From Planotetraspora phitsanulokensis (GTDB lineage: Bacteria > Actinomycetota > Actinomycetes > Streptosporangiales > Streptosporangiaceae), in assembly GCF_016863295.1 (NCBI RefSeq), contig NZ_BOOP01000037.1, positions 1 to 64,000 on the forward strand: 64,000 nucleotides of DNA, written 5' to 3'. Shown here one piece after another: positions 1 through 58,969 of this stretch. Position 1 is the first letter of the stretch. Every line of letters begins with the position of its first letter. The notes under the pieces were generated by a model. That model worked only from the letters and a program-made list of their open reading frames with translations, made no database searches and was not told the DNA's origin. A program made the position numbers and the translations under genes.

Positions 1-66
1 ATCAACGGTGACACCAGCACGGTGCGCAAGGGAGACGCCGGTGCCTTCTCACCCATCGCCGCCTGA
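1..66 (+). CDS. C-terminal end of an unidentified gene (partial)
   Basis: The first 66 bases read as an open frame in frame 1 and end in TGA at 64-66 (last residues FSPIAA). It would be the tail of a gene that starts outside the window and runs convergently toward metI. The 21 residues are too few to name a family. Codon use has GC-rich third positions as in the neighbours. It could be a chance frame. Confidence 0.3.
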   Translation: MNGDTSTVRKGDAGAFSPIAA

Positions 67-42039: not shown

Positions 42040-42421
42040 GTCGCGGCGCTTGTTGGCGCCGACCTTCAGGCCTTCATCGAGGCGTGTTGACGTGGTTCGT
42101 GTAGATCCGGGTGGTCTTCGATCGCGGCGTCCGTTGGCGCCGCCCTTCATCGAGGCTCGGTGTGCAGCATGGACCAGGCTATGTCCGGAGACGTCACGGC
42201 GCTCCTGGGTGCCGCCCTTCATCGAGGCTCGGTCCGCGTGCCCTTGCCGGACTTGGACACCGCTTCAGGTCGCGGCGCTCTTGGGCGCCGCCCGCATCCG
42301 CGACCTCGGCTTCTCCGGTCGCGGCGTTTCTCGGGCGCCGCCTTCATCGAGGCGGGATGTAGCCGTCGGCCCAGTACGCAGGGACGGTGTCGCGGTGCGC
42401 ACCTTGCATCCTGTTCTTCGC
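42040..42421 (+). CRISPR. Short degenerate CRISPR array (array 1, about 6 repeats)
   Basis: Five recognisable repeats begin at 42040, 42121, 42193, 42269 and 42318, with a sixth half-repeat at 42389. They share the core of the two large arrays: GTCGCGGCGC, a six-base loop, GGCGCC, then GCCCTTCATCGAGGC. The first repeat has an eight-base insertion, the fourth has lost its CTTCATC end and the last lacks it altogether. Spacers are about 36 bases. The spacer at 42354-42388 shares its 3' end with a shortened unit of array 3. No leader could be defined. Confidence 0.8.
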
Positions 42422-42541: not shown

Positions 42542-44164
42542 TCAGGGCGCCATGAAAGGGTGCTTGGCGAGTAGGGCTTCGAAGAAGTTCTGGAGCATCG
42601 CGGTGACCGCGGCCTCGTTCCTGGTCAGCTCGTGGCCGCCGAACCGGTACACCTCATACCCCTTGAGCCGCAGCGCCCGGTCTTCGGCGGCCATCTTGGA
42701 GTACAGGTGGGGTGAGGCGGCCGCGCCTGCCTCCATGCCGTCGGCGTAGTGCTGCTGGCCGTCGACTTCCAGGACGACACGGGTACTGTGCGGCAGGAGC
42801 AGCAGGAAATCCATGCGCCCGCGTCCCAGCATGCTGTCCTTGCCGCCTCGCTGCCTTCGGGTCTGCGGGTCGTAGTGCAGGTACACCTGCGGGATAAGGG
42901 CGGGGCAGCGACTGGTGTCCTCGCGCAGGAGATAGGCCTGGGCGTAGGCGCGGAAGAGGACCTGCTCGGGTTTGCTCGCCAGGGACCTCCATAGCCGATT
43001 GCACAGATCTCGTCCGGCATCGAGATCGGACACCTCGGTGGAGAGGGATTGGCGGGCGCGCCACCAGGACAGCAGGTCGGCCCAGGTGAGCCCCTCGGGG
43101 TTCAGGGGCCTGTCGTAGACCAGGCAGTTATCGGCATTGCGCACGATCCGGATGTCATTGTTCACCGCGTCCCCGAGCACGATCTCGGGTTTGGGCCCGT
43201 CCGCGGCGAAGATTATGTTCTTCATCGTCCCGGAGACACCACCGCCGATCCTGCGGCTGGCGAAGATCGGCGCCCCGCTGATCTGGTCGACCTGGACGAG
43301 CTCGTACCCGTCATGGGCAAGGACGGAGTTGTAGAAGGCGTGCAGATGCCGGACCTCGACCTGCTCGGGACGCACCACGGGGTGAAGGGTCTCGACTAGG
43401 AACCGCAGGAGCCGCCCATCGTGCGCGCCGATGCCGAACCGCTCGTCCCGGTAGATCCAGTCGGCGGGGAAGTCGTCGTTGTTGATGCAGTGCTGGATGA
43501 GGTCCAAGCGGGCGGTGGCGTACCGGGGGTCGAGGCTCGGCATCCGGTCCAGGTCGTACAAGCGGTCGAGAAAGGCGACCTCGTCGAGCGTGCCCCACCA
43601 AAACAGATCCGGGAGCCCAACCGGGGCGCCCGCCTCCGCCAGCTCATCCATGATCTTCTTGCGGACTGCGTCGAGACCGTCGATGAGCCTACGGCGGGTG
43701 ACCTCCGTGATCTGGACGGCAGTGCCATCGCGGTCGGCTTGCTGCCCGGTCTGCAGGTCCTCGATGGTCTCCAACCGGGCGAGCACCGGCTCGAACAGGC
43801 CGGCGAGGTAGGCCCGCCGCTTCGCCCAACCTCCCGCATCCGACATTCCCCGGCTCTTCCAGTACTGATGGAAACCGACCTGGTCGCGAAATGGCGGGTC
43901 GAACACGATACGAAGACGCCCCAGGACAGCACGCAGAGCCCTCAACGCGACGGCGATCTCGGCGTTGTCCAGCCGGAGGTTCTTCTGCTCGGTGCCGTAT
44001 TCCAGCAGCTCGTCCCAGCTCAGACGGGCCAGCGCTGACGCGGCGTCGACGTCGGCGAGGTCCCCTAACGGTCCCTTGCGCAGCTGCTCCACCCGCGCGG
44101 AATCGAAGATCGTCCCGTTCGGCGTCTGGCTGAAACCCTTTAGGAAGGGATTACCGGGAAGCAT
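42542..44164 (-). CDS. AbiJ-like defence protein with C-terminal PD-(D/E)XK nuclease domain
   Basis: This large protein (about 540 residues from ATG 44164) starts with a helical N-terminal part, containing FLKGFSQTPNGTIFDSARVEQLRKGPLGDL and later PPFRDQVGFHQYWKSRGMSDAGGWAKRRAYLAGLFEPVL, which resembles AbiJ-type abortive-infection proteins. The last 90 residues form a restriction-endonuclease-like fold: MDFLLLLPHSTRVVLEVDGQQHY with Asp452, Glu466 and Asp468 in the D-E-x-D arrangement, followed by EDRALRLKGYEVYRFGGHEL. It lies between CRISPR array 1 and the cas operon, on the opposite strand. A nucleolytic antiphage role is inferred. Confidence 0.75.
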   Translation of the reverse strand: MLPGNPFLKGFSQTPNGTIFDSARVEQLRKGPLGDLADVDAASALARLSWDELLEYGTEQKNLRLDNAEIAVALRALRAVLGRLRIVFDPPFRDQVGFHQYWKSRGMSDAGGWAKRRAYLAGLFEPVLARLETIEDLQTGQQADRDGTAVQITEVTRRRLIDGLDAVRKKIMDELAEAGAPVGLPDLFWWGTLDEVAFLDRLYDLDRMPSLDPRYATARLDLIQHCINNDDFPADWIYRDERFGIGAHDGRLLRFLVETLHPVVRPEQVEVRHLHAFYNSVLAHDGYELVQVDQISGAPIFASRRIGGGVSGTMKNIIFAADGPKPEIVLGDAVNNDIRIVRNADNCLVYDRPLNPEGLTWADLLSWWRARQSLSTEVSDLDAGRDLCNRLWRSLASKPEQVLFRAYAQAYLLREDTSRCPALIPQVYLHYDPQTRRQRGGKDSMLGRGRMDFLLLLPHSTRVVLEVDGQQHYADGMEAGAAASPHLYSKMAAEDRALRLKGYEVYRFGGHELTRNEAAVTAMLQNFFEALLAKHPFMAP

Positions 44165-44267
44165 CGCCTCATTATCCCCTGGCCACTCTGATCTCGGACA
44201 AAGGTTTGCTGAGCCGCGCTTCCAAGCACTTGAGCCCCCGGACGGTCGCGCGGCCAATCTACTTGCC

Positions 44268-44447
44268 TTACGTGGGCTGAACGACCTTCAAGCGGCCGAC
44301 TTTGACCATCGGCATGCTGAGGCCGGGGTCTCTGGCCAGGCCATACGGAGAGCGGCTGCGGCACTCCGCGAGGCCGAAATAGGTAAGCAACGCAAGCAGA
44401 ACGTCCAGGTGTTCGCTGTACCGGGCGGACTTGCTGTCTTCAGCCAT
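44268..44447 (-). pseudogene. Possible remnant of a small winged-helix protein
   Basis: A 59-residue frame beginning MAEDSKSARYSEHLDVLLALLTYFGLAECRS has natural helical composition like the start of a winged-helix regulator but ends early, and no continuation is found in other frames. The call is weak. Confidence 0.25.
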
Positions 44448-44750
44448 GCAAGCCCTACTTTCGGCGTCGAAGGTCCTGACGCCGGTCACTACGCAGATCG
44501 TCCAATAGCCGCGCCGCGTTAGCGTCCTTCGGGACCGTTTTGGCCGTTCGGTGGCAAGTCATGACGAAAGCGGGATTCGGCGGCGATTGGTACAACTTCG
44601 TATATATCGGCCGGAGAATCTCAAGCGTCTGGGGGAGCCGGTATTACGCGGAACCAGGAAAACCTGTCTTCAAGGGATCGGCCGGTGCGTGGCCAACGCC
44701 GCACTTCCACACGCGGATTCGCCTGCATCGGTGAGAGATTTCCGGAATAC

Positions 44751-44870
44751 CTCTCATCGCCCCTTGGTCTCGGATACGGTCACCTCGATCCCGCTTTCAT
44801 CCAGGTCTCTCGTCGCCGCTTGGCTATCCGGGACAGTTCTTCGCCCGCTTCGCGGGTCCTTCATCTCGCA
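44751..44870 (+). ncRNA. Candidate Cas-regulating crRNA-like RNA: pseudo-repeat, spacer, pseudo-repeat upstream of csb1
   Basis: Two degenerate repeats lie ahead of the cas operon. The first (about 44778-44806) ends CCGCTTTCATCCAGGT, close to the repeat end CCGCCCTTCATCGAGGC. The second (about 44840-44870) has a perfect hairpin CCCGC-TTC-GCGGG, one base, then CCTTCATC, exactly the hairpin-N-CCTTCATC order of the true repeats. The intervening pseudo-spacer begins at 44807 with CTCTCGTCGCCGCTTGG. It matches 44751-44767 (CTCTCATCGCCCCTTGG) at 15 of 17 positions, with mismatches only at positions 6 and 12. The match lies about 160 bases before csb1. This fits a self-targeting, autoregulatory crRNA. 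A diverged tandem duplication is the alternative. Confidence 0.45.
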
Positions 44871-44923
44871 CCTCCGGTGATAGCAGCCGGGGGCGACATT
44901 CCGTCTCAGTCAAGGAGGAACCG

Positions 44924-46138
44924 ATGTCTCCGATCACGTTGGACACGCTGCTGGGCGCCACTGCCCCAGGAGGCGGTAGCTGTCTCACATCGACCACCGA
45001 ACTCGCTCCTGCGGGAGGGGGCCATCAGGCGGTGGCGCCCGCCAAGTTCGCGGCCCCACGGGGGAAGGAGAGCGTGTACGCCTACGAGCGGCGATACCTC
45101 GACGAAGATCTGCGAACCGCGGTGATCATCGATTCGAAGCAGAGCCAACTCAACCGGGCGGAGGCCGGGTTGGCGCTGGCCATCGAGGATGGGAACCCCG
45201 TCTTATCGCGGATGCCGCGAATCGTCGTCACGTACGTGGTCGATGGGCGGGTGGAGAAGTACTCGGATCTCACCCTTCCGCACAGGGCATACGACGGGCA
45301 CATCCGCGCCGCTACGAAGGATGGGGTCCCGGTCACTGACCTGCCGGAATACCGTGCGATCCGCGATGCCTCGCCGGCGAACGCGCGGGCGTTGCTGGAT
45401 GCCAGCCCGATCACGCTGGTGTACGGGGGTTGGGATTCGAGCAGAAGGGCGCGGCAGGGTCGCTGGCGTAGCGCTCTGGTGGGGGAGATCATCGGGTTCT
45501 GCCGCGAGCGGGAGCCGTCACTGCGTGGTGGCGCCCGTGTGGATGGCGTCGGCATGCAGATGCTGCTGTCCGGCAAGGATCTGCGGGAGATCGTGGAGCG
45601 CCAGTACGGCGAGTTGAGCGCGAAGAAGGCGAACGACCTGCTCAAGGCGGCAGACAAGGCGACCAAGGACAAGGCCCCGATCTCGGCGTCGCCCGTGGGC
45701 TTGGGTGGTATCCCGCCCGCGCTCAGCCAGTTGGCCGGCGTCGCATGCGAGCGGATCATCCGAAGCCATGTGCTGTCGTTCGCCACGCTGCGGCAGATGC
45801 GGTTCGGCGCCGGGGCGCAGGGCGACCAGGCGTGCAGGGCGCTGCTGGCGGCGTTGGCGCTCAACGGGCTGGCCCGCTCGGACGCGGAGCTGTATCTGCG
45901 GGCCAACTGCGACCTGGTCGAGGCGGATGGCACCAGGGTGACGCTGGATCAGCGCGGCGGCCAGACGATCAGTCTCGAGCCGCTCGGCATCAAGGAGGCG
46001 GACGCCCTGCTGGCGGAGGCGTTGGCGCACGCCGAGCAGGAGGCTGGCGTCCAGTGGAACGGTCCGGTGCTGGAGGTCGACGGAAACCCCGCGATCGTCG
46101 CGGGCGCCGTGGCCGGTGACGCGGCCGACGAGGAGTGA
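44924..46138 (+). CDS. csb1: Type I-U/I-G Cas7 protein Csb1 (GSU0053 family)
   Basis: This 404-residue backbone subunit of the type I-U (I-G) Cascade complex matches the GSU0053 family, with RYLDEDLRTAVIIDSKQSQLNRAE, ITLVYGGWDSSRRARQGRWRSALVGEIIGF and RSHVLSFATLRQMRFG. Several copies line the crRNA spacer. AAGGAGG ten bases before the ATG is a strong ribosome site. It is the first gene of the cas operon, preceded by the pseudo-CRISPR structure, and csb2 starts six bases after its stop. Confidence 0.92.
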   Translation: MSPITLDTLLGATAPGGGSCLTSTTELAPAGGGHQAVAPAKFAAPRGKESVYAYERRYLDEDLRTAVIIDSKQSQLNRAEAGLALAIEDGNPVLSRMPRIVVTYVVDGRVEKYSDLTLPHRAYDGHIRAATKDGVPVTDLPEYRAIRDASPANARALLDASPITLVYGGWDSSRRARQGRWRSALVGEIIGFCREREPSLRGGARVDGVGMQMLLSGKDLREIVERQYGELSAKKANDLLKAADKATKDKAPISASPVGLGGIPPALSQLAGVACERIIRSHVLSFATLRQMRFGAGAQGDQACRALLAALALNGLARSDAELYLRANCDLVEADGTRVTLDQRGGQTISLEPLGIKEADALLAEALAHAEQEAGVQWNGPVLEVDGNPAIVAGAVAGDAADEE

Positions 46139-46144
46139 TCGGCT

Positions 46145-47665
46145 GTGCCGTACGCCATCATCGCCGAGCTCCCGCTCGGCACCTACCACGGTCACACGGG
46201 TGACGGTGAGATCGATTCGGTTCCCTCGCCGGCTCGGCTGGCGGCGGCGCTGTTGTGCGCGGCGGCGAGCGGACCGCGGGCCGAGCACGACGGCGTGCTG
46301 CTGAGCCCGTGCGAGGCGGACATGGCCGCGCTTCGCTGGCTGGAGACTCATCCGCCGGACGGAATTCGTGTGCCCCCACTGTCGGTGAACCAGCCCGATG
46401 GGCTGGCCTACCGGATTCGGCTTCTGGAAAAGCGCCCGCATGGACGGGTCTTCTCCCGCACACCGCAACCATTGGGGTCGGTCGCGGTCAACGGGAGTTA
46501 CGCCTGGACATGGCAGGTCGGCCCCCCTGCCGCGCTTCGTGAGCCGATCGAGGCGCTGTGCGCGGACGTGTCGCACCTGGGCATGGCGGAGACTCCTGTG
46601 CGGATGCGTGTCGGGACGGCCGAGCCCACGCATGATCTGGTCCCGGACGCGGACTGGTGGGACACCGCCAAGGGTGATCTGGACCTGGACGTTCCGGAGC
46701 AAGGTAGGGCGCATGCCCTCCTGGCGGCCTACCGGACCGACAACGGCAAGGCCCCAGCTGTCACCAAGGACAGGCTGGTCAGCAACGAGACTCATGTGCG
46801 ACCGACGCGGGTCACAGCAGCCATCGCTTCGGCCAGGTACGCCTCCCGCCAGCCAGCACCTCCCAGTGGTCCATGGGGCCAGGTGCTGCTCGCGGACGTC
46901 GACACGCCCCTGACTCGCGAGGCCGATCGGGTGCGCTGGGCCGTCACCATGCACAAGGCCCTGATCAAAATGATCGGGTACGGTGCTCCACCTGTGCTGA
47001 CCGGCGTGTATGGCCCCGAGATCGTACGGCCGGCCAACCGGTGCGCCATCCAGATCCTCACCGAGCAGGAAGCGTCCGCCAGCGGAGCGTCCTCAAAATC
47101 CCTGTTCGCTCTGATGTTGCCGTCCGACATCGACGGGGCGGACTACAAGGTCATCAAGGACGCATGGGAAGCGCTCACCGAGATCCGCCCCGGCCGGCGT
47201 CTGTCCTTGACCACACGCCCAGAGCAGCGCGCGGACCAGTTCTGGAACGCGCCACCCGACGGGCATGTCCGGTTGTGGCGCACCGTTCCGGCCGCTGTGC
47301 CGGAGACGCGTGGACAGGGCAGGAACTGGACGCTGACCGACGCTATCCGGCTGTCGGTCGGCCTGGTCCTGCGGGACCAGCTGGGCATACCCGCGAGCAA
47401 GGGCAGTTCGTGGTACCGCGAGGTCGCCGAAGCCGCGCGACGAGCCGGGCTCACAGTGGCGAACGCCGAACCCGTCCGCGATGGAGACTTGAGTCGGTTC
47501 GTCCACAAGATCCCTGCCGGGCTGCCGCTGCGGCCCTACCGAGCGATCATCGACCTCGCCACCCTGACCCCCTCCCGGGGGATGCTCGCCATCGGCCAGG
47601 CGCGGCATCTGGGCAACGGGCTGCTGGTGCCCGAGGACGTCCCAGCTGATGAGGTAACCCGATGA
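46145..47665 (+). CDS. csb2: Type I-U/I-G Cas5-Cas6 fusion protein Csb2 (GSU0054 family)
   Basis: This 506-residue protein starts at GTG 46145 (VPYAIIAELPLGTYHGHTGDGEIDSVPSPARLAAALLCAAASG, a Cas5-like RAMP beginning). It ends with a Cas6-like part rich in Gly and basic residues (RLSVGLVLRDQLGIPASKGSSWYREVAEAARRAGL). In the I-U/I-G subtype Csb2 supplies both the Cas5 function (crRNA 5' handle) and Cas6-like repeat cleavage. It overlaps cas3 by ATGA. It appears full length, with no frameshift. Confidence 0.9.
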   Translation: MPYAIIAELPLGTYHGHTGDGEIDSVPSPARLAAALLCAAASGPRAEHDGVLLSPCEADMAALRWLETHPPDGIRVPPLSVNQPDGLAYRIRLLEKRPHGRVFSRTPQPLGSVAVNGSYAWTWQVGPPAALREPIEALCADVSHLGMAETPVRMRVGTAEPTHDLVPDADWWDTAKGDLDLDVPEQGRAHALLAAYRTDNGKAPAVTKDRLVSNETHVRPTRVTAAIASARYASRQPAPPSGPWGQVLLADVDTPLTREADRVRWAVTMHKALIKMIGYGAPPVLTGVYGPEIVRPANRCAIQILTEQEASASGASSKSLFALMLPSDIDGADYKVIKDAWEALTEIRPGRRLSLTTRPEQRADQFWNAPPDGHVRLWRTVPAAVPETRGQGRNWTLTDAIRLSVGLVLRDQLGIPASKGSSWYREVAEAARRAGLTVANAEPVRDGDLSRFVHKIPAGLPLRPYRAIIDLATLTPSRGMLAIGQARHLGNGLLVPEDVPADEVTR

Positions 47666-50451
47666 CACTGTCCCTCAGCGACTTCAATGACTTCTTCTCC
47701 GCCGTGAACAGCCGGGACGGAATCCCTCACGACGGCATCCGCCCGTTCGGTTGGCAGCGCAGGCTCCTGGAAGGTCTCGTCCGGGACGGCAGGTGGCCCG
47801 ATGTCATCGGTGCGCCGACCGGTGCCGGGAAGACCAGCGTGATCGATGTCCATGTGTTCGCCGTCGCGCTGATGGCGGCGGGTGCCGTCCCTCGGTTGCC
47901 GCGCCGCTTGTCGATGGTCGTGGACCGGCGAGTGCTCGTTGACGATCAGTATCAGCATGCGTGTGAGCTGCGTGACAAGCTTCATCCAGGGGCCGGCAGT
48001 CCGCCGGCCAGCGACATTCTGGCCGAGGTCGCCCGCCTCCTGCGGTCAATGCTCGTCACCGCCGATGTCGCATCCCCCCTCATGGTCAGCAGGCTGCGCG
48101 GGGGGATGCCGGCGCCGCGTGCCTGGCGCGACGACGCGACCGCCTGCCAGGTCATCTGTGCGACACCCGACATGTGGGGCAGCCGGCTCCTGTTCAGCGG
48201 GTACGGCACCAGCTCCTCGTCCCGGCCTCGCGAGGCAGGGCTGCTCGCCTTCGACTCGGTGGTGGTCGTAGACGAGGCGCACCTGTCCCGGCAACTCATC
48301 CGAACGACCCGCCGCGTCGCAGAATTGGCAGCCATCAGCGATCGTCGATTGCCCGTACCGGTGCTCCAGGTTGTGGAGGCAACCGCGACCCCAGATGAGC
48401 CCGGGTCAATGGTCGTGGCCGACGTGGACGAGGCCGACCTGTCCGAGAGCCCGGCCCTGGAGGAGCGGCTGCGCAGGCCCAAACCCATCGAGTTCCTGGA
48501 ACTGCCGACCTGGCCCATTCCCACCAAAGGCCCCGCCCGAGCCTCCGCACTGGCGTCAATGGCAGACTGCGCGACCAGGTTGCGCAACACCTACGGCCCG
48601 ACGATCGGCTGCTTCGTGAACAACGTGGCAACCGCGACGGATCTCGCCGCGCTGCTCGGCAAGCATGGCGAAACGCGCCTGGTGTGCGGCCGGCTGCGCC
48701 CGTACGACCTGGACCGGCTGCAGAACACCAATCCGGGCCTGCTGAGCGCAGACGGCGATCCGAAGGTCGATTTCCTGATCTCCACACAGAGCCTGGAAGT
48801 CGGCGTCGACCTCGACTGGGCCGCCGCCCTGGTCGAGCTGGCCCCCGGTTCTGCCATCACGCAACGCGCCGGCCGGGTCAACCGCCGCGGCAAGCGCGCC
48901 GACACCCGCATCGTCGTCGCGATCCCCGCCAAAGAAGTCGGTGAGAAAGCCAACACCGCGCCCTACGAACCCGAAGACCTGAACGCCGCGCTCGCGTGGC
49001 TGCGCGAACGTCAGGTCGACTCCAACGGGCTTGCCCCGTGGGTGCTGCGTGAGCATCCACCGCCCGGCCAGCGGCGGCGCCGCACCCTGTTGCAGCGCGC
49101 AGAACTGAGCGACGCGTGGATGTGGGCGCGAACCAGCGACCGGCTGTTCGCCACCAGCGATCTGGACCTGTGGCTGTCCGACAACCTTGTTGAAGACCTC
49201 GACGTGGGAATCGTCGTACGACAGGGCCTGCCCGCCGACCCCGTTGCGGCCATCGAACTGCTTCGAGCGCTCCCACCGTTCGACTACGAGGCGATCCCGG
49301 TAAAGATCAACACCTGCCGGACCAGGATCGAAGAGATCACCGCACCGGTCTTCCTCGTCCGCGACGACGACGTGTCGATCTATTCGGCCCAAGATGTGCG
49401 CCCGGGCGACATCGTCGTGGTAGACGCGAGTTCTCCGATCTTCACCGTGATCGACGGCATGGCGCTGGTGGACCAGACCGGCAGCAGTGCGGCGGCGGAT
49501 GTGCTGGAGGGCCCCGCCCATCCGAAGATCGGTCAGTTCGTCTTCCGGCTTGGCCACGGCCCGTTGCTTGATCCCGCCGCGTTCGATGATGACGAGACCA
49601 AGACGGCGATCGCCCACGTCCTGACCATTGCTGCAACCCTCAGGGACACCGACAGCCTCGACGGGCGCCGAGGACGGGCCGAACTGGCAGACGCTCTGGA
49701 CAAGCTCACCCCGTTGCTGGCCGAACCCGTGGCCGACAGGGTACGGGCCGCGGTCAAAGTCCTTCTGAGGGCGAACCTCAAGGATTTCGAGGTTCACGTG
49801 CTCGGCGAGCCGCCTGTCAGCCTCCTCATCACCGACAACCGCCGGATGCTCCACGACGAGGCCGCACGCCAGCAGTGGACACCCCGAGAGCGCGTCCCCT
49901 TGCACGCCCACGCCGCCGCCGTCGCCGAGCGGGCCCGGATCACCAGCGATCAACTCGGCCTGGAATCTCAGAGCGACCTGCTGGAACTCGCTGGACTCCA
50001 CCACGACGACGGAAAAGCCGACTCACGATTCCAGCTCAGCCTCGACCCCCAGCGGACAAGCGAACTTCCCCTGGCCAAAAGCGGTATGAGCACATCGCGG
50101 CAGATCAAACAGGCTCGAGCCGAATCAGGCCTGCCATCCAGGTGGCGCCACGAGCAGCTGTCCGTACTCGCCTGCTGGAACGCCCTCGCCGACCTTCCCG
50201 CAGACGACCGGGACCTGGTCGCACGTCTCGTCGGCACAAGCCACGGGGAGGGACGCTACGGATTCCCGCACACCGTCACCGAACTCACTGGAGACGACAC
50301 CCACCAGGAGCTGGGGCGGCTCCTCTACGGCGAGGGCGAATGGGACCACATCATCGAGCGAACACATTCGATCTTCGGCATATGGGGCTGCGCCTACCTG
50401 GAAGCACTGCTCCGAGCTGCCGACGGCCAAGTGTCCAGCGAGGGATCATGA
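47662..50451 (+). CDS. cas3: CRISPR helicase-nuclease Cas3 (type I-U, helicase-HD order)
   Basis: This 929-residue protein has an SF2 helicase first: Walker A GAPTGAGKT (residues 50-58), DEAH (204-207) and motif VI QRAGRVNRRG (from residue 401). The HD nuclease domain follows at the C-terminus, with HHDDGK from His780. In most type I systems the HD domain is N-terminal; the helicase-first order is characteristic of type I-U. Cas3 degrades DNA recognised by Cascade. All key motifs are present, so interference should work. The gene overlaps csb2 and csb3. Confidence 0.95.
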   Translation: MTLSLSDFNDFFSAVNSRDGIPHDGIRPFGWQRRLLEGLVRDGRWPDVIGAPTGAGKTSVIDVHVFAVALMAAGAVPRLPRRLSMVVDRRVLVDDQYQHACELRDKLHPGAGSPPASDILAEVARLLRSMLVTADVASPLMVSRLRGGMPAPRAWRDDATACQVICATPDMWGSRLLFSGYGTSSSSRPREAGLLAFDSVVVVDEAHLSRQLIRTTRRVAELAAISDRRLPVPVLQVVEATATPDEPGSMVVADVDEADLSESPALEERLRRPKPIEFLELPTWPIPTKGPARASALASMADCATRLRNTYGPTIGCFVNNVATATDLAALLGKHGETRLVCGRLRPYDLDRLQNTNPGLLSADGDPKVDFLISTQSLEVGVDLDWAAALVELAPGSAITQRAGRVNRRGKRADTRIVVAIPAKEVGEKANTAPYEPEDLNAALAWLRERQVDSNGLAPWVLREHPPPGQRRRRTLLQRAELSDAWMWARTSDRLFATSDLDLWLSDNLVEDLDVGIVVRQGLPADPVAAIELLRALPPFDYEAIPVKINTCRTRIEEITAPVFLVRDDDVSIYSAQDVRPGDIVVVDASSPIFTVIDGMALVDQTGSSAAADVLEGPAHPKIGQFVFRLGHGPLLDPAAFDDDETKTAIAHVLTIAATLRDTDSLDGRRGRAELADALDKLTPLLAEPVADRVRAAVKVLLRANLKDFEVHVLGEPPVSLLITDNRRMLHDEAARQQWTPRERVPLHAHAAAVAERARITSDQLGLESQSDLLELAGLHHDDGKADSRFQLSLDPQRTSELPLAKSGMSTSRQIKQARAESGLPSRWRHEQLSVLACWNALADLPADDRDLVARLVGTSHGEGRYGFPHTVTELTGDDTHQELGRLLYGEGEWDHIIERTHSIFGIWGCAYLEALLRAADGQVSSEGS

Positions 50452-51449
50452 ACGGGATCACCCTCGGCGGCGACCCCCGCCGCCTCATCACCCACCTGGC
50501 CCTCTACGGCCTGGCCGCAATCTGCGCCGACGCCGGCCACACTGACCTGCGCATCTCGTGGACCACAGGCATGCGCCCCCGCCCGCACCTGGACATGCAC
50601 CCAGACACTGCCGCGGATATCGTCCACGCCCATGCACGCGACTGCGACTGGGTGAAAGAGACGATCAACCTCGCCGGCACACCCCGCGGCCTCATGAGCC
50701 CCCGCCTGACCGCCATCAGCACCGACGACGGTTGGCAGGAACTCCAAGACCGGCGCCACAAGGTCCTCGACACTCTCACGGCGGCGCGTGCGGTCCTCGG
50801 CCTTCGCTTTCTCGGCGCTCTCGGCGAACCGGCCTACTGGCGCTTCGACAAGAGGACGGGAAAGCGGGTGCAGGACGATGCAGCCAACCGGCTGGAGATG
50901 CAGCCACGAAACACCGGAGCGGAATTCGTCGGCAGCCGCCTCAGCAAGATCGCTGAAAAGGTCGCCGCGCGGACGACCAGCCAGATTCTCGACGGACTCC
51001 TCGGGCGCCACGTGCGCGACGAAGTCTCCGGCGACGCGCCTGACAGCCGTTCGGCCACCGGATTGGACGCTCCCGGGCCCGCTGACAACGCCGTGGTGTG
51101 GTGTGCGCTGTGGGGCATATCCCAGATCCCCATCGCCCTGCGGACCGGCGGACCGGCATTGACCAGCGTCTCCGTACGCAACAGCCGCCCTGAGCACTTC
51201 GCCGTACCCATGTGGCGTATCCCATGGCATCCCGCGCGGCTTCGCAGCATCCTCGCCTCCGCACAATTCCAAGCCGTCGCAGCCGCGCTCGCCCGCCGAG
51301 AAGTACCCGACGAGAACCCTCGGCTGTGGCTGACCTCCCGCGGAGTGACCGCGATCATCACATTCCCCGTGACCATTTCCGGCAGCGACAAAGCCCCGGA
51401 ACGCCGAGCGGGCGCTGGCCAACTCCACCCAATCGGCAGGCGCCAATGA
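50448..51449 (+). CDS. csb3: Type I-U Csb3 (Cas8u-like large subunit)
   Basis: This 333-residue protein begins MNGITLGGDPRRLITHLALYGLAAICADAG, typical of Csb3, the Cas8u-type subunit of the I-U Cascade. It continues with a conserved stretch ALGEPAYWRFDKRTGKRVQDDAANRLEMQPRNTGAEFVGSRL. Cas8-type subunits read the PAM and recruit Cas3. The ATG overlaps the cas3 stop and the TGA overlaps the ATG of the broken cas4-cas1 gene. It is the last intact gene of the effector operon. Confidence 0.88.
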   Translation: MNGITLGGDPRRLITHLALYGLAAICADAGHTDLRISWTTGMRPRPHLDMHPDTAADIVHAHARDCDWVKETINLAGTPRGLMSPRLTAISTDDGWQELQDRRHKVLDTLTAARAVLGLRFLGALGEPAYWRFDKRTGKRVQDDAANRLEMQPRNTGAEFVGSRLSKIAEKVAARTTSQILDGLLGRHVRDEVSGDAPDSRSATGLDAPGPADNAVVWCALWGISQIPIALRTGGPALTSVSVRNSRPEHFAVPMWRIPWHPARLRSILASAQFQAVAAALARREVPDENPRLWLTSRGVTAIITFPVTISGSDKAPERRAGAGQLHPIGRRQ

Positions 51450-51725
51450 CCATCCCCTTCGGGGACCGTGACCCCATCCACATCAGCCTCGTCGCGCACC
51501 AAGCGTTCTTGCCCTCGCCGGGCCTGGCTCGAGGCGGCTGGAGAAAGCACCGACACCGGCCAGATGGCGGTGGGGACCCGCGACCACACATCCGTCGACG
51601 ACCAAGCCTCCTCTCGATCCACCCGTGTGCGCTCGCTCGACGCGATCAGCGACCGTCTCAACATCGTCGGGCGCTGCGACCTCGTCGAATTAGACGCCAC
51701 CGGAGAGTTGACGGTGGTCGAAACT
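51446..51725 (+). pseudogene. cas4: cas4-cas1 fusion gene, frameshifted and truncated by a CRISPR repeat
   Basis: The ATG overlaps the csb3 stop. Frame 1 reads MTIPFGDRDPIHISLVAHQAF. One extra T near 51510 shifts it, and CPRRAWLEAAGESTDTGQMAVGT then continues in the next frame up to DLVELDATGELTVVE. This is the N-terminal Cas4 domain, with the first Fe-S cysteine in FCPRRAW. At about 51723 the sequence turns directly into a CRISPR repeat. The rest of Cas4, the whole Cas1 part, cas2 and any leader are missing. The adaptation module is lost in this window. Confidence 0.85.
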
Positions 51726-53680
51726 ATCGCGGCGCTCGTTGGCTCCCCTTCATCGAGACCCGCGTGATCGACGGGTCGTGCTGTGGGTCGACGAGGGTCG
51801 CGGCGCTCGTTGGCGCCGCGCTTCATCGAGGCTTGACGGTTCCGGCGTCCTCGGTCTCGTCCTTCGAATCGCGGTGCTCGTGGGCGCCGCCCTTCATCAA
51901 GGCGCGGCATACGGGTGGATGGACAGCACTCCCCGGGGGCTCGCGGCGCTTGTGCGCGCCGCCCTTCATCGAGGCCCGATGCCGGGGCACGCGCTCGGCA
52001 TGTCGCCGATATCGCGGTGCTCGTTGGCGCCGCCCTTCATCGAGGCTGCGTGGTCTTCATGGCCGGGGGCATCTGCGCCAGCCGTGCGGCGCTCGGTCGC
52101 GCCGCCCTTCATCCAGGCATGATTTGTGCGATCGTGGCCAGCGCGTACGTGACCGTCGCGACGCACGTTGGCACCGCCCTTCATCGAGGCACCATGCTCC
52201 ATGTCTTGGGATCAAGCATCCCGCGACGTCGCGGCGCTCCTGGGCGCCGTCCTTCATGAGGCTCAGGAGGGGTGGTCATATGGGTCACGGCGCTCCTGAG
52301 CCGCCCTTCATCGAGGCTTGTCCGCGGCGGTCTTGCCGTCCCCGAACTTCCCGATCGCGGCGCTTGTTGGCTCCGCCCTTCATCGAGGCGTCCGCGAGTC
52401 GCATCCGATCCGCACCCTCGGCCCCGTCGGCCCCGTCGCGGCGCTTGTTGGCGCCGCTTTTCATCAAGCCGGTTGAATAGGACACGACCTAGCTAATCTA
52501 CGGTCGCGGCGCTCGTGGGCGCCGCCCTTCATCGAGGCACGACGTTCTGCGCCTGCCGGCGATACCTAGGAAGTCGCGGCGCTTGTTGGCGCCGCCCTTC
52601 ATCGAGGCCGCACGGGGCCGGCGGTCGCGGTGACAGCGGCCATGAGTCGCGGCGGTCCAGAGCGCCGCCCTTCATCGAGGCATGTATACGTAGCGGGACG
52701 CCCGCTCTCGCTATTGAAATCGCGCGCTCGTGGGCGCCAGCCCTTCATCGAGGCGACGCCATCCGCGACGCGGACGAGTCGGAGGCGGGGCGGTGCTCGT
52801 GGGAGCGGCCCTTCATCAAGGCCAGTAGGGATCAAAGGCTGTGAAGTTCATGCCGAGGTCGCGGCCCTGGTGGGCGCCGTCCTTCATCGAGGCAAGGCAG
52901 GCATCTCCGCAGTCGGCCTGGAAGCTAAGACATCGCGGCGCTCCTGGGTGCCGCCCTTCATCGAGGCCCGCGCCGGATGGTGGTCATGTCGGGCACGACC
53001 ACGTCGCGCGGCGCTCGTGGGCGCCACCCTTCATCAAGGTGCCTACTGGCGGACTGGCCGAGACGCGGTCAACCATGGTGCTCGTTGGCGCCGCCCTTCA
53101 TCAAGGCCTGATGCGGCGCCTCGCCGGTCTCGAGCGGCAGGTGGCGAGTCGGGGTGCTCGAGAGCGGCGCCCTTCATCGAGGTCCGACGATCGCCACGTC
53201 GCCTGGGTGGATGTCCAGCTCGCGGCGTTCGTGGGCGCCGCCCTTCATCAAGGTACAAACCAGCCGAAGGGAGGCTCATGACCAAGCGACAGGTCGCGGC
53301 ACTTGTGGGTGCCGCCCTTCATCGAGGCTCCATGACGACCCTGATGCCGAAGCCGTTGTAGGACTCAGTCGCGGCGCTCTTTGGACGCCGCCCTTCATGG
53401 AGGACTGTCCTGCATGTCAGTCTTGGCCAACACGGGCTGATCGCGGCGCTTGTTGGTGCCGCCCTTCATCGAGGTCAGAGATCCACACGATCAGCGGTCG
53501 GGTACCGAGGCGCTCATTGGCGCCGCCTTTCATCGAGGCTGGGCGACGATCCGGCTGTACGGCAGGACGCGCGGGTCGCGGCGCTTGTGCGCGCCGCCTT
53601 TCATCGAGGCTCCATAGCCATTGGAGACCGAAGCCCTTGTAGGAACGTCGCGGTGCGTAGTCCCTGCTTCATCGAGGGTG
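51726..53680 (+). CRISPR. CRISPR array 2, about 28 degenerate repeats
   Basis: Repeats of 36 bases recur about every 71-74 bases. Consensus: GTCGCGGCGC, variable loop TCGTTG, then GCGCCGCCCTTCATCGAGGC. Examples start at 51797, 51868, 51940, 52011, 52353, 52503, 52573, 52932 and 53293. Almost every repeat has one or more changes, mostly in the loop. One spacer (between 52262 and 52284) is very short. The last repeat (53647-53680) is strongly decayed, so the trailer end is on the right and transcription would run left to right. The array begins directly at the broken cas4 gene with no leader. Confidence 0.93.
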
Positions 53681-54150
53681 AACCCTGTGGGTGGTGATGA
53701 CACCTGGATCACGTCGCGGCCTCCACATGGCGACCTTGCCACGCTTAGGCTGCCCGCCCGCTGCAGCTGACGAGATGTCAGGCTCAGCGCGAAGATCATG
53801 AAGTTGACGGGCGAGGATCTGGCGCTGAAGTTCAGCGGCGCCGGCCTGTGCCTCGGGGCGTTCGGCACGGACACGGGCGTCCTGGGCACTTGCCCTCAGC
53901 GCCGCTAATTCAGCCTGATGGGCTGCGGTGACCAAGGCCAACTGACGATCTGCATCGGCGCGCAGATTGTGGATCTCTCCCCGGGCCTCTGCAGCGGCTT
54001 GCTCGGCTTGAGCTCGGGCGCGATCCCGCTCGGTCTCGGCTGTCTCGGCGCTCGCGCAGCACTGCCTTATCGGCGGCGGCCTCGGTAAGCGCCTGCTCAG
54101 CGAGAGGTGAGCCGATCCGCGTGCGCGTCGCAGACGCCTCACCAAGGGCA
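53669..54150 (-). pseudogene. Broken duplicate of the coiled-coil zinc-finger protein gene
   Basis: This stretch is a close copy of 58940-59420. It encodes the C-terminal third of the 383-residue coiled-coil protein: TERDRARAQAEQAAAEARGEIHNLRADADRQLAL, then the end LARQLHDLRAEPDISSAAAGGQ. Frameshifts occur near 54050, where ALTEAAADKAVLRE continues in another frame, and one base is missing at the stop, extending the frame. The N-terminal two thirds are absent. The copy includes the preceding array end, so array and gene were duplicated together. Confidence 0.8.
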
Positions 54151-55401: not shown

Positions 55402-56271
55402 GTGTACATGATCTACATCGACGACAGTGGGCAGAAAGAGGTCCGCCGCCGACACATGGGTGAGCTCGTCTCGGTCGGCGGCGTGATCGTCCCCGAACCC
55501 GCAGTCGCCGGCTTCGCGACCGCGCTCGACGGCATCCGCGCGGAGTTCGAGATCCCCGAGGGCGAGGAACTCAAGTGGAAGCCACCCAAGAGCACCTTCC
55601 AGGCGAAAGCGACCGGCCCACTGATCACCGAACTGCGCCAGCGGATGCTTCAGGCCGCCATCGATAGCGGCATCAAGTCTGCCGTCGTGGTGTGGGACCG
55701 TGGTCATGTCCCGTGGGAGAAGACTCGCGTCGAACCCGAGATCCTCAAGTACCTTTATGAGCGGATCGCGTCGTACCTGCGCGAGCGAAACGACGTCGGC
55801 ATCATCATCGCCGACCAGCCGGGCGGCGGCCGCAAGGACGAAGTGAAGTGGCTAGCCGACACTCTCGGCCTGACCCGGGAAGGCACCCGCTTCGCCACGC
55901 CCGATCGTGTCGTCTCGCCGATCCTGACTGCACCGTCCCATCACGTCCCGCACCTGCAGCTGGCAGACCTCGTCACCGCAGCCACCACCGCGGCGGTCGC
56001 CGGGCAGCCGGCCGGGATGAAGCTGGCGAAGTGGCTGAAGGAACTCGCTCGCACCAACGCGCATGGGCTTGTCGGAGGCACGGGCGTGGCGCTGTGGCCA
56101 CCCGACCTGGTGGACTTGCACTACTGGATTTTTCAAGAAACCCACTACGCCAAGGGATCCACCGGACATCCGATCGGCCCATCCGACAACCCTTTCAGCG
56201 ACCCTGGGCGGACCTACCAGCGCGACGACGGGCTCCCTGGCCCTGACAGCCCCACCAGCAGGCCCCCCTAA
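55402..56271 (+). CDS. DUF3800 protein
   Basis: This 289-residue protein starts at GTG 55402 (ATG at 55408 also possible). It begins MIYIDDSGQKE, the hallmark of DUF3800, in which the early Asp pair belongs to an RNase H-like fold, followed by GELVSVGGVIVPEP and later IIIADQPGGGRKDEVKWL. LQLADLVTAATTAAV near the end is also typical. Such proteins are common in phage-defence and mobile regions. The C-terminal 30 residues run into the start of CRISPR array 3. The catalytic role is an inference from the fold. Confidence 0.82.
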   Translation: MYMIYIDDSGQKEVRRRHMGELVSVGGVIVPEPAVAGFATALDGIRAEFEIPEGEELKWKPPKSTFQAKATGPLITELRQRMLQAAIDSGIKSAVVVWDRGHVPWEKTRVEPEILKYLYERIASYLRERNDVGIIIADQPGGGRKDEVKWLADTLGLTREGTRFATPDRVVSPILTAPSHHVPHLQLADLVTAATTAAVAGQPAGMKLAKWLKELARTNAHGLVGGTGVALWPPDLVDLHYWIFQETHYAKGSTGHPIGPSDNPFSDPGRTYQRDDGLPGPDSPTSRPP

Positions 56272-58902
56272 CGACGGCGAGAAACGCCCTTCATCGAGGC
56301 CCGACCATTTGTGTGGATGATGAACACCCGCGGCGTGCCGATCGCGGCGCTCGTTAGTGCCGCCCTTCATCGAGGCAGGTTCGGACCCGCTTTGGTGACC
56401 AGGTTCAACGCCCGTCGCGGCGCTCCAGAGCGCAGAGGCAGGTCCGTCAGGTACTGCGGGACGACCAACTGGTGGCCCGGTGCGCGGGCGCCGCCCTTCA
56501 TCGAGGCATGCAGGCATCGCTGTACCGTCCGAGTCCGTCAGGCATCGCGGTGCCCGTTGGCGCCGCCCTTCATCGAGGCGTGAACTCGGTCGGCGGGGAG
56601 GATGCCAGGATCACGTCGCGGCGCTTGTAGGCGACGCCCTTCATCAGGCAGGATCTCCACACTGGCCTCAATAGCGAGTTTGAGCCGCGGCATCTTGGGT
56701 GCCGCCCTTCGTCAAGGCAGTCCGGGGCAAGGCCAACTACCTTTCGTGAAACATGCAATCGCGGCGCTCGTTCGCGCTGCTCTTCATCGAGGCGGTGACC
56801 AGATCCGCCGCCTGGAGGAGCGCGAGGATCGCGGCGCTTGTTCGCCGCCCTTCATCGAGGCGTCCGGCCGTGTGAAGATCGGATGGCACGCCCGGATCGC
56901 AGCGCTCGGTCGCGCCGGTTCTCCCTCGAGGCCAGACGCCGATTCCACTGGCGTTGTGACCGGTTGTTGGCGGTGCTCGTGGGTTCTGCCCTTCATCGAG
57001 GCTACTGAACAGCCATATGCAAGGCCGACTCAGGCGTGAGATCGCGCCGCTCAATCGCGCCGCCCTTCATCGAGGCGACGAATAGCCGTGGCTCGCCCAG
57101 ATACTGAACGACGACATCGCGGCGCTCGTTCGCGCCGCCTTCATTGAGACATTTAGCGCAGGACAGGCAGCCCAGGAGCGGGGATCGCGGTGCTCCTTGG
57201 CGCCGCCTTTCATCGAGGCAGGATGTTCGCGGTGGTGGTCTCGGACGGGAACAGGTGTCGCGGCGCTCATGCGCTCCGCCCTTCATCGAGGCGTCCAGAA
57301 GGCGAACTCCCCGCCGGGCCGGCGGATGCTGCGGTGCTCGTTGGCGTCGCCCTTCATCGAGGCCAGACGCCGATTCCGGCAGTGTTGTGTCCGGTGGCGT
57401 CGCGGCGCTTGGGAGCGCCGCCTTCATCGAGGCCCCCATTTGCGAGCGAGGCCGAGAGCCGTTCCGCCATCGCGGCGCTCCAGAGCGCCGCCCTACATCG
57501 AGGATTCGCAGGGGCAGCGGACTGCCAAACCTCAATAGGTATCGCGGCGCCCGTTGGCGTCGCCCTTCATCAAGGGTTGATTTCTTCATGATTCTGGACG
57601 CCTACCCTGAAGTCGTAGCGCTCCTGGGCGCCGCCCTTCATCGAGGCCCGAATAATCCCACGCCGATTCGTCGGTTACGGTCGTCGCGTCGCTCCCAGGG
57701 GCCGGCCTTCATCGAAGCCGGTCGGCGGCCTCGGCCGAACCCTCGCAGGACTTTTCGCGTCGCTCGCCGGGTGCCGCCCTTCATCGAGGGTTGTTGATCA
57801 AGAACAGGTTGTATCCGGTCACCGGTCGCGGCGTTCATCGGCGCCGCCCTTCATCGAGGCTCGATGCCGGTCATCTCGAAGTAGACGTTGCCTTCGTCGC
57901 GGCGCTCCTGGGCGCCGCCCTTCATCGGGGCGGTAACGCCATTCTTGCTACTCGTAAGCTCCAGCTATCGCGGCGCTCGTTGGCGCCGCTCTTCATCGAG
58001 GCTGGGCGACGACGCGCCCGTAGGGGATCACCCGGGGTCGCGGCGCTCCAGAGCGCTGCCCTTCACCGAGGAAGGTCGTCGCGTTTGACCAGGCCGGACT
58101 TCGGGTTGGAGGTATCGGCGCTCGTGGCACCGCCCTTCATCGAGGCCCGAGCAGCGCGCCGAGCGTTTGCGGCAGAAGTGCGGGGTCGCGGCGCTCGTTC
58201 GCGCTGCCCGTCATCTAGGCACCGGCCTATGGGGTCTCATGAGACGCCGTGGGATCGATCGCGGCGGTCGTCGCTGCCCTTCATCGAGGTATCGTCGACC
58301 GGATCAGCATGGCCGTCAAGTACGAATCGCTGTGCTCCTTGGCGCCGCCCGGTACGCAGGACGGTGTCGCGGTGCTTGTGGGTGCCACCCTTCATCGAGG
58401 CCCGAAGAACGCGAACTCGATGTTCGCAGGCCCCATATCGTGGCGCTCGCTGGTGCCCCCCTTCATCGAGGCTCCATAACCACCCGCAGACCGAAGCCCT
58501 TGTAGGAACGCCGCGGCACTCTTGGGTGCCGCCCTTCATCGAGGTGGCCCCGACTCCGAGCGCGTCTGCCGACAGTTCCAGATTGCGGCGCTCGTTGGCG
58601 CCGCCCTTCATCGAGGCGCGTCCGGGCGGAGGTACAGCATCTCCTCCTCCAGAGTGGCGCCGCTCGTGTGCGACGCCCTTCATCGAGGCACCGCCAGCCT
58701 GTACATCCGGACGGGCACATTCGACCATCGCGGCGCTCGTTGGCGCCGCCCTTCATCAAGGCATGCAGGGCATCGCCGTACCGGCCGAGAGCGTGCGGAT
58801 CGCGGTGCTCGTTGGCGCCGCCCTTCATCGAGGCTCCATAGCCACTGGAGACCGAAGCCCTTGTAGGAACGCCGCGGTGCGTAGTCCCTGCTTCATCGAG
58901 GG
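56271..58902 (+). CRISPR. CRISPR array 3, about 38 degenerate repeats
   Basis: The repeat family of arrays 1 and 2 continues here with a period of about 72 bases. Well-kept repeats start at 56341, 57184, 57825, 57896, 57967, 58583, 58727 and 58799. The first unit (56271-56299) has only the 3' half, adjacent to the DUF3800 stop. One repeat (56414-56439) has an internal deletion, and the interval 58326-58366 has a spacer cut to a few bases. The last repeat (58871-58902) is decayed in the same way as the last repeat of array 2. Spacers are about 35-38 bases. Confidence 0.93.
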
Positions 58903-58969
58903 TGAACCCTGTGGATAGTGATGACACCAGGGTCACGTCGCGATCTCCGCCTGGCGACCTTTCCCACGC

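Follow-up and report, generated by a model that had tools for sequence, protein, structure and literature searches.

The stretch of DNA analysed here, hereafter the window, comprises 64,000 nucleotides of a contig of Planotetraspora phitsanulokensis (Streptosporangiaceae) and harbors a type I-G CRISPR-Cas locus with three stretches of CRISPR array (Table 1). Profile libraries identified the operon as csb1, csb2, cas3 and cas8g, correcting the preliminary description of this DNA, where it was given as csb1-csb2-csb3. The type I-G effector set (Csb1, Csb2, Cas8g, and Cas3g) is thus present in full; a search by sequence for solved structures of Csb1 and Csb2 returned none that was useful. The array repeats, 36 nt long with the consensus GTCGCGGCGCTCGTgGGCGCCGCCCTTCATCGAGGC, are degenerate in all three stretches. 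In front of csb1, a guide-like sequence (psi-S) lies between two degenerate repeats (psi-R1 and psi-R2), preceded by a partial copy of the guide, termed here the target.

Table 1. Features of the cas operon, its arrays and the putative regulatory unit (positions in the window)
Feature	Position	Strand	Basis or remark
Short degenerate CRISPR array	42040..42353	+	
PAM (TAC) of the target upstream of csb1	44748..44750	+	TAC/TAG at 6/7 protospacer loci; AATAC flank in 4/4 genomes
Target (protospacer, non-target strand) upstream of csb1	44751..44767	+	15/15 non-sixth match; co-varies with the guide in relatives
psi-R1, degenerate first repeat	44771..44806	+	highest array weight-matrix score within 44600-44930, though negative
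Putative crRNA 5' handle, last 8 nt of psi-R1 (ATCCAGGT)	44799-44806	+	6/8 handle match here
psi-S, guide of ~28 nt	44807..44834	+	start set by weight-matrix placement of psi-R1/psi-R2
psi-R2, degenerate second repeat	44835..44870	+	stem-loop CCCGCTTCGCGGG (44844-44856), then TCCTTC|ATC
Conserved hairpin CCTCCGGTGATAGCAGCCGGGGG between psi-R2 and csb1	44871..44893	+	kept in four genomes, both stem sides changed
csb1 (cas7g), I-G Cascade backbone, first gene of the operon	44924..46138	+	TIGR02570, PF09617, PDLC01630
csb2 (cas5-cas6 fusion), predicted processing enzyme	46145..47665	+	TIGR02165, PDLC01776
cas3g	47662..50451	+	TIGR02621, PDLC01769
cas8g (large subunit)	50448..51449	+	PDLC01374, E 1.8e-75
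Main degenerate CRISPR array, part 1	51724..53610	+	
Main degenerate CRISPR array, part 2	56265..58834	+	

A Cas4-Cas1 fusion serving adaptation is named as a mark of type I-G in the available part of PMC10333696. Since a search of the window's genome gave no Cas1 match (the same search was positive in 9 of 14 control genomes), the system is regarded as an I-G effector module devoid of an adaptation module. As for the arrays, stem pairing in 61 repeats of the three stretches amounts to 0.796, the mean and maximum of 1000 shuffles being 0.733 and 0.778, respectively; in the arrays of a Nonomuraea relative (G142, 49 repeats) it is 0.845 vs. 0.732 in shuffles. This retention of stem pairing suggests that the array crRNAs are still under selection despite the lack of a Cas1 match.

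In the window, repeat similarity alone makes a weak case for the unit. A weight matrix built from the array repeats ranked psi-R1 (44771) first and psi-R2 (44835) third among 330 positions, both with negative scores, and when the array repeat was aligned locally to the upstream region, the score did not exceed that of shuffles in the window's genome, G000 (p = 0.53), or in its relative G078 (p = 0.15). The same alignment beat shuffles in two other relatives, G142 and G165 (p = 0.01 each), where the left repeat ends in 14 nt identical to the array repeat. The putative handle matches that of the arrays at 6/8 positions in the window, 7/8 in G078, and 8/8 in both G142 and G165. The half-repeats become convincing because handle, PAM, and seed coincide and because the relatives keep the half-repeats: in a joint scan for these elements (TAC/TAG as the PAM, 350 nt), each of the four genomes scored 21/23, the null maximum being 17-18 (300 shuffles for each genome, none of which reached 21/23). 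The two degenerate repeats around a pseudo-spacer noted in the preliminary description are upheld on these grounds. The guide is ~28 nt long; among the array spacers, 30 of the 38 measured are 35-38 nt long and one has 28 nt. A search of Rfam with positions 44200-45000 (E up to 1) gave no match, and a scan of 44500-44960 for sigma70-like sites or terminators found none, so that a csb1 promoter at the target is putative. The hairpin at 44871-44893 has a conserved loop, TSATAGCAG, and its stem has changed on both sides across lineages; a role in shielding the end of the csb1 mRNA once the transcript has been cut is possible.

The central observation is the match between guide and target, for which the letters and coordinates reported earlier proved correct on re-reading. 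The guide at 44807-44823, CTCTCGTCGCCGCTTGG, and the 17-nt target at 44751-44767, CTCTCATCGCCCCTTGG, which lies 56 nt upstream of the guide and only 3 nt before psi-R1, share 15 of their 15 non-sixth letters and differ at positions 6, 12, and then 18. In the genome of 9,165,987 bases, the pattern CTCTCNTCGCCNCTTGG has exactly two occurrences, the guide and the target sites. According to the available text of PMC9638904, the Cas7 of type I-G flips out every sixth base, the repeat is 36 nt long, and Csb2 cuts it 4 nt beyond the hairpin base, leaving an 8-nt handle.

The distribution of the unit was followed in 341 genomes of the family; Csb1 was matched (E up to 0.001) in 36 of them. Three more distant genomes with Csb1 came from samples of the class (394 genomes) and the phylum (396 genomes), and three loci from a contig scan. 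G009, possessing Csb1 fragments only, was left out of the count. Csb1 is at least 84% identical in four genomes: G000 (the window), G078 (93%), G142 (85%), and G165 (84%). The latter two are Nonomuraea loci with the same guide; only three lineages are independent. The unit is found in all four, in the same order (target, handle, guide, second half-repeat), with a target-to-guide spacing of 56-57 nt and with 64, 65, 66, and 66 nt from the handle to the next cleavage site. In the order G000, G078, G142, G165, the guide matches its own target at 15, 14, 13, and 13 of 15 non-sixth positions, a result equalled by 0, 0, 4, and 3 of 4000 Markov shuffles (in the window, of both strands over 300 nt upstream of the guide). 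Beyond position 17, the match is at chance level (0, 1, 3, and 3 of 10 non-sixth positions, counted in the window over positions 18-30), and positions 6 and 12 are mismatched in all four genomes.

Guide and target have changed in concert between the lineages. When the window is compared with G078, the target differs at positions 9, 11, and 14 and the guide at 9, 11, 14, and 17, leaving three concerted changes (9, 11, 14; P 1.5e-4 under simulated independent change); in the comparison with Nonomuraea, there are five (1, 11, 13, 16, 17; P 3.3e-4, likewise simulated). Over the three lineage comparisons, the concerted positions number 3, 5, and 5. Each guide fits its own target better (15, 14, 13, and 13 of 15) than the target of another lineage (7-12), the two Nonomuraea loci matching each other's at 13. 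Changes outside this pattern affect the guide of G078 at position 17 and, in Nonomuraea, the guide at 3 and 12 and the target at 9; position 6 has changed there in both guide and target, but differently. The resulting seed mismatches (17 in G078, 3 and 9 in Nonomuraea) count against a regulatory pairing; the concerted change and the fact that positions 6 and 12 never match count for it. At the same time, crude dN/dS values against G078 of 0.10 (csb1), 0.16 (csb2), and 0.21 (cas3), at crude synonymous distances of 0.37, 0.30, and 0.41, respectively, indicate purifying selection on the operon. Taken together with the co-variation, these values imply that the operon is kept while the letters of the unit drift and the pairing is held. 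Such natural compensatory changes in three lineages are evidence of selection. The preliminary description had called for an alignment of related loci, with half-units drifting without complementarity as the adverse outcome; the opposite is seen.

Another point of the preliminary description concerned the TAC preceding the target, which was held against the pairing as not being a TTN-type PAM. This objection was overturned by the protospacers of the clade, collected by comparing spacers of the window with family genomes, phages, and viral contigs, and two spacers of G142 (L040) with phages. Among the hits examined, out of many more, TAC or TAG precedes the protospacer in 12 of 14 or, grouped by site, at six of seven loci. 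The exceptional locus, counted against the motif, comprises two 29/36 hits of spacer b with flanks ending in GCGC and CGAC. Poor hits were left out of the count, e.g., L127 (25/36, flank CCG) and L135 (23/36, flank GGC), as were five of the eight viral contigs, matched at fewer than 24/36 positions. Given the background frequency of TAC/TAG trinucleotides in the window (0.0097), six of seven loci correspond to P 5.7e-12, a post hoc value, the motif having been chosen from the same data on which it was scored. All four genomes have AATAC directly before the target upstream of csb1. As the PAM reported for type I-G is TTN (PMC9638904, available text), the clade differs in this respect, displaying a PAM other than the reported one. 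A literature search on a TAC PAM of the type I-U Cascade found no paper.

Cas-regulating RNAs of mini-CRISPRs, called CreR, were reportedly introduced by Liu et al. in Cell Host Microbe in 2023. In the accessible portions of later reports (PMC13131331, PMC12737573, PMC12948488), CreR is described as a crRNA-like RNA that guides Cas effectors to the promoter region of their own cas genes by partial complementarity, generally without a toxin, and is reported for types I-B, I-E, and V-A. The unit under study resembles CreR in sequence: a mini-CRISPR with degenerate repeats adjoins the cas operon, and its guide has limited complementarity to the DNA upstream of the cas genes. It would differ in serving type I-G, in the predicted processing by Csb2, in the TAC/TAG PAM, in the degenerate arrays, and in the lack of a detected I-G-linked Cas1. 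It also resembles CreA of the CreTA systems, which, in the excerpts of PMC8501985 and PMC9458426, consists of psi-R1, psi-S, and psi-R2 with divergent repeats, retains the PAM and pairing at positions 1-5 and 7-11, and keeps the 5' handle better in psi-R1 than in psi-R2. A further feature taken from CreA (PMC8501985, excerpt), the system's own PAM at the target, is present here as TAC. However, CreA represses a toxin RNA, whereas no toxin is apparent at this locus and the target sits immediately ahead of the unit and csb1.

Judging from the sequence, the unit is very probably a CreR-type gene for a Cas-regulating RNA of a type I-G system, which would repress its own operon; the self-targeting, Cas-regulating crRNA proposed earlier thus gains support from the concerted change of guide and target and from the clade's own PAM at the target. 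In the putative mechanism, Csb2 would process RNA from psi-R1, the guide, and psi-R2, psi-R1 supplying the handle and psi-R2 the stem-loop followed by CCTTC|ATC, into a predicted product of ~64 nt beginning with ATCCAGGU. Csb1, Csb2, and Cas8g would carry this RNA to the region in front of csb1, where, in the window, pairing is possible only at positions 1-5, 7-11, and 13-17. For haloarchaeal CreA, pairing at 1-5 and 7-11 along with a PAM suffices for creT suppression, requiring the Cascade genes and not cas3 (PMC8501985, excerpt); if this logic is carried over, csb1 would be repressed here. A short R-loop might then block transcription without cleavage by Cas3, so that the operon would limit itself, and repression could be lifted once Cascade is taken up by array crRNAs or anti-CRISPR proteins. 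The type I-G system of Thioalkalivibrio sulfidiphilus, with Csb2, Cas7, Cas8g, and Cas3, a 36-nt repeat, an 8-nt handle, and a flipped sixth base, is alike in these respects; it differs in the expected mature crRNA of 72 nt, the predicted regulatory RNA here being ~64 nt long, and the PAM reported for I-G is TTN, compared with TAC/TAG in the present clade (PMC9638904, available text).

A more specific version, possible if on balance doubtful, is that Csb2 excises the regulatory RNA from the cas mRNA leader. A single promoter at the target would then give one transcript spanning psi-R1, the guide, psi-R2, and csb1, and Cascade carrying a guide of 28-30 nt, shortened by about one Cas7 step, would shut the same promoter without calling Cas3. 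If so, an I-G system that no longer adapts, its spacer memory frozen, would possess a stoichiometric self-limiting loop.

Several other explanations of the two related sequences have to be weighed. Guide and target could belong to an addiction module of the CreTA/CrePA kind, in which the guide represses a toxin RNA or gene at the target's promoter and protects the adjoining cas operon. The architecture is indeed that of creA (PMC8501985, excerpt), one known creTA lies directly upstream of a cas operon, and in the window an AbiJ-like gene starts ~0.5 kb upstream on the other strand. This option is nevertheless improbable: only 3 nt separate the target from psi-R1, and inspection of the ORF lists of the window, G078, and the two Nonomuraea loci by eye revealed neither a common small ORF between the target and csb1 nor a common upstream neighbor, although a tiny toxic RNA could go unnoticed at the sequence level. 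With different upstream ORFs and no small ORF in common, the cas operon itself appears to be the object of control.

The presence of two 17-nt direct repeats 56 bp apart would also suit operators of a protein regulator of csb1, and a change of the regulator would alter both copies together as well; such operators predict neither an 8-nt handle before one copy and a PAM before the other nor the constant mismatches at positions 6 and 12, rendering this explanation very unlikely. There is slightly less chance still that the locus is a decaying array remnant, i.e., two diverged, functionless copies of one spacer-repeat unit, the alternative named in the preliminary description. Decay would accord with the degenerate arrays of the clade and the lack of a Cas1 match in the genome, yet at a synonymous divergence to G078 of 0.30-0.41 the paired positions were kept matched by concerted change. 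Moreover, the duplication is disfavored because TAC, and not a repeat end, precedes the target and because the agreement of the copies (in the window 1-5, 7-11, and 13-17) stops at position 17. Like operators, an array remnant would not lead one to expect the combination of handle, PAM, and sixth-base pattern.

If the CreR-type reading holds, RNA-guided self-repression of cas genes would extend to type I-G, called the least well understood type I subtype in the available text of PMC9638904. The accessible portions of two CreR reviews (PMC12737573, PMC13131331) contain neither the term I-G nor I-U, and literature searches on CreR, mini-CRISPR autorepression, and I-G autoregulation found no I-G case, an earlier computational prediction in the primary CreR report being possible. 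The findings also suggest that such regulation persists in systems seemingly without spacer acquisition.

The unit was not found in any of six relatives with Csb1 of 39-65% identity, four of which (G336, L004, L005, G562) were searched by the joint scan and two (G848, G994) by seed pairs only. A weak candidate in G336 (12/15, guide after CCGAGGC) was rejected: its target does not follow TAC/TAG, and the best joint-scan score was equalled by 106 of 300 shuffles. A wide seed-pair scan of distant I-G loci was swamped by array matches. In a masked scan of 28 I-G loci for seed pairs only (threshold 13/15 for pairs on the same strand and 14/15 for those on opposite strands), 11 loci had such pairs, which by eye were array units, low-complexity sequence, or lacked a handle. 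Upstream of other I-G operons in G228 and G069 (L059, L066), direct repeats of the seed type (14/15), spaced 126 and 71 nt apart, respectively, show no clear handle by eye.

Cas1 was sought in eight further genomes and matched in six. Of the bearers of the unit, G142 and G165 gave weak matches only, located far away on the chromosome or on another contig, and G078 gave no match; G336, G994, and G562, which lack the unit, have strong matches within ~8 kb of csb1. Of the other genomes without the unit, G848 has one weak match on another contig and G002, which has no csb1, has none. The association of adaptation loss with the unit is a correlation only, drawn from few lineages.

Several minor observations concern the surroundings of the unit. 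Upstream of it, on the other strand, a gene at 42542-44257 gives an AbiJ_NTD3 match and a weak DUF559 match; it was not recognized by eye among the upstream ORFs of the relatives. Related arrays occur in G002, of the same genus (L116, G002:C37:165928-168093), where genome searches gave no Csb1 or Csb2 match, and in G009 (L118, G009:C54) Csb1 fragments at ~1600-2060 are accompanied by array-like matches and may be what is left of a decayed locus copy. The segment between the two main arrays has stretches of 72-87% identity in other family genomes, and the array ends at 53656-53720 and 58880-58944 are alike (86% over 43 nt and an identical 21-nt stretch). Finally, the spacers at 53329, 53611, 58473, and 58835 are related (TCCAT...CCGAAGCC(C/G)TTGTAGGA) and seem to aim at one conserved site; the phage match of one of them falls in a major capsid gene.
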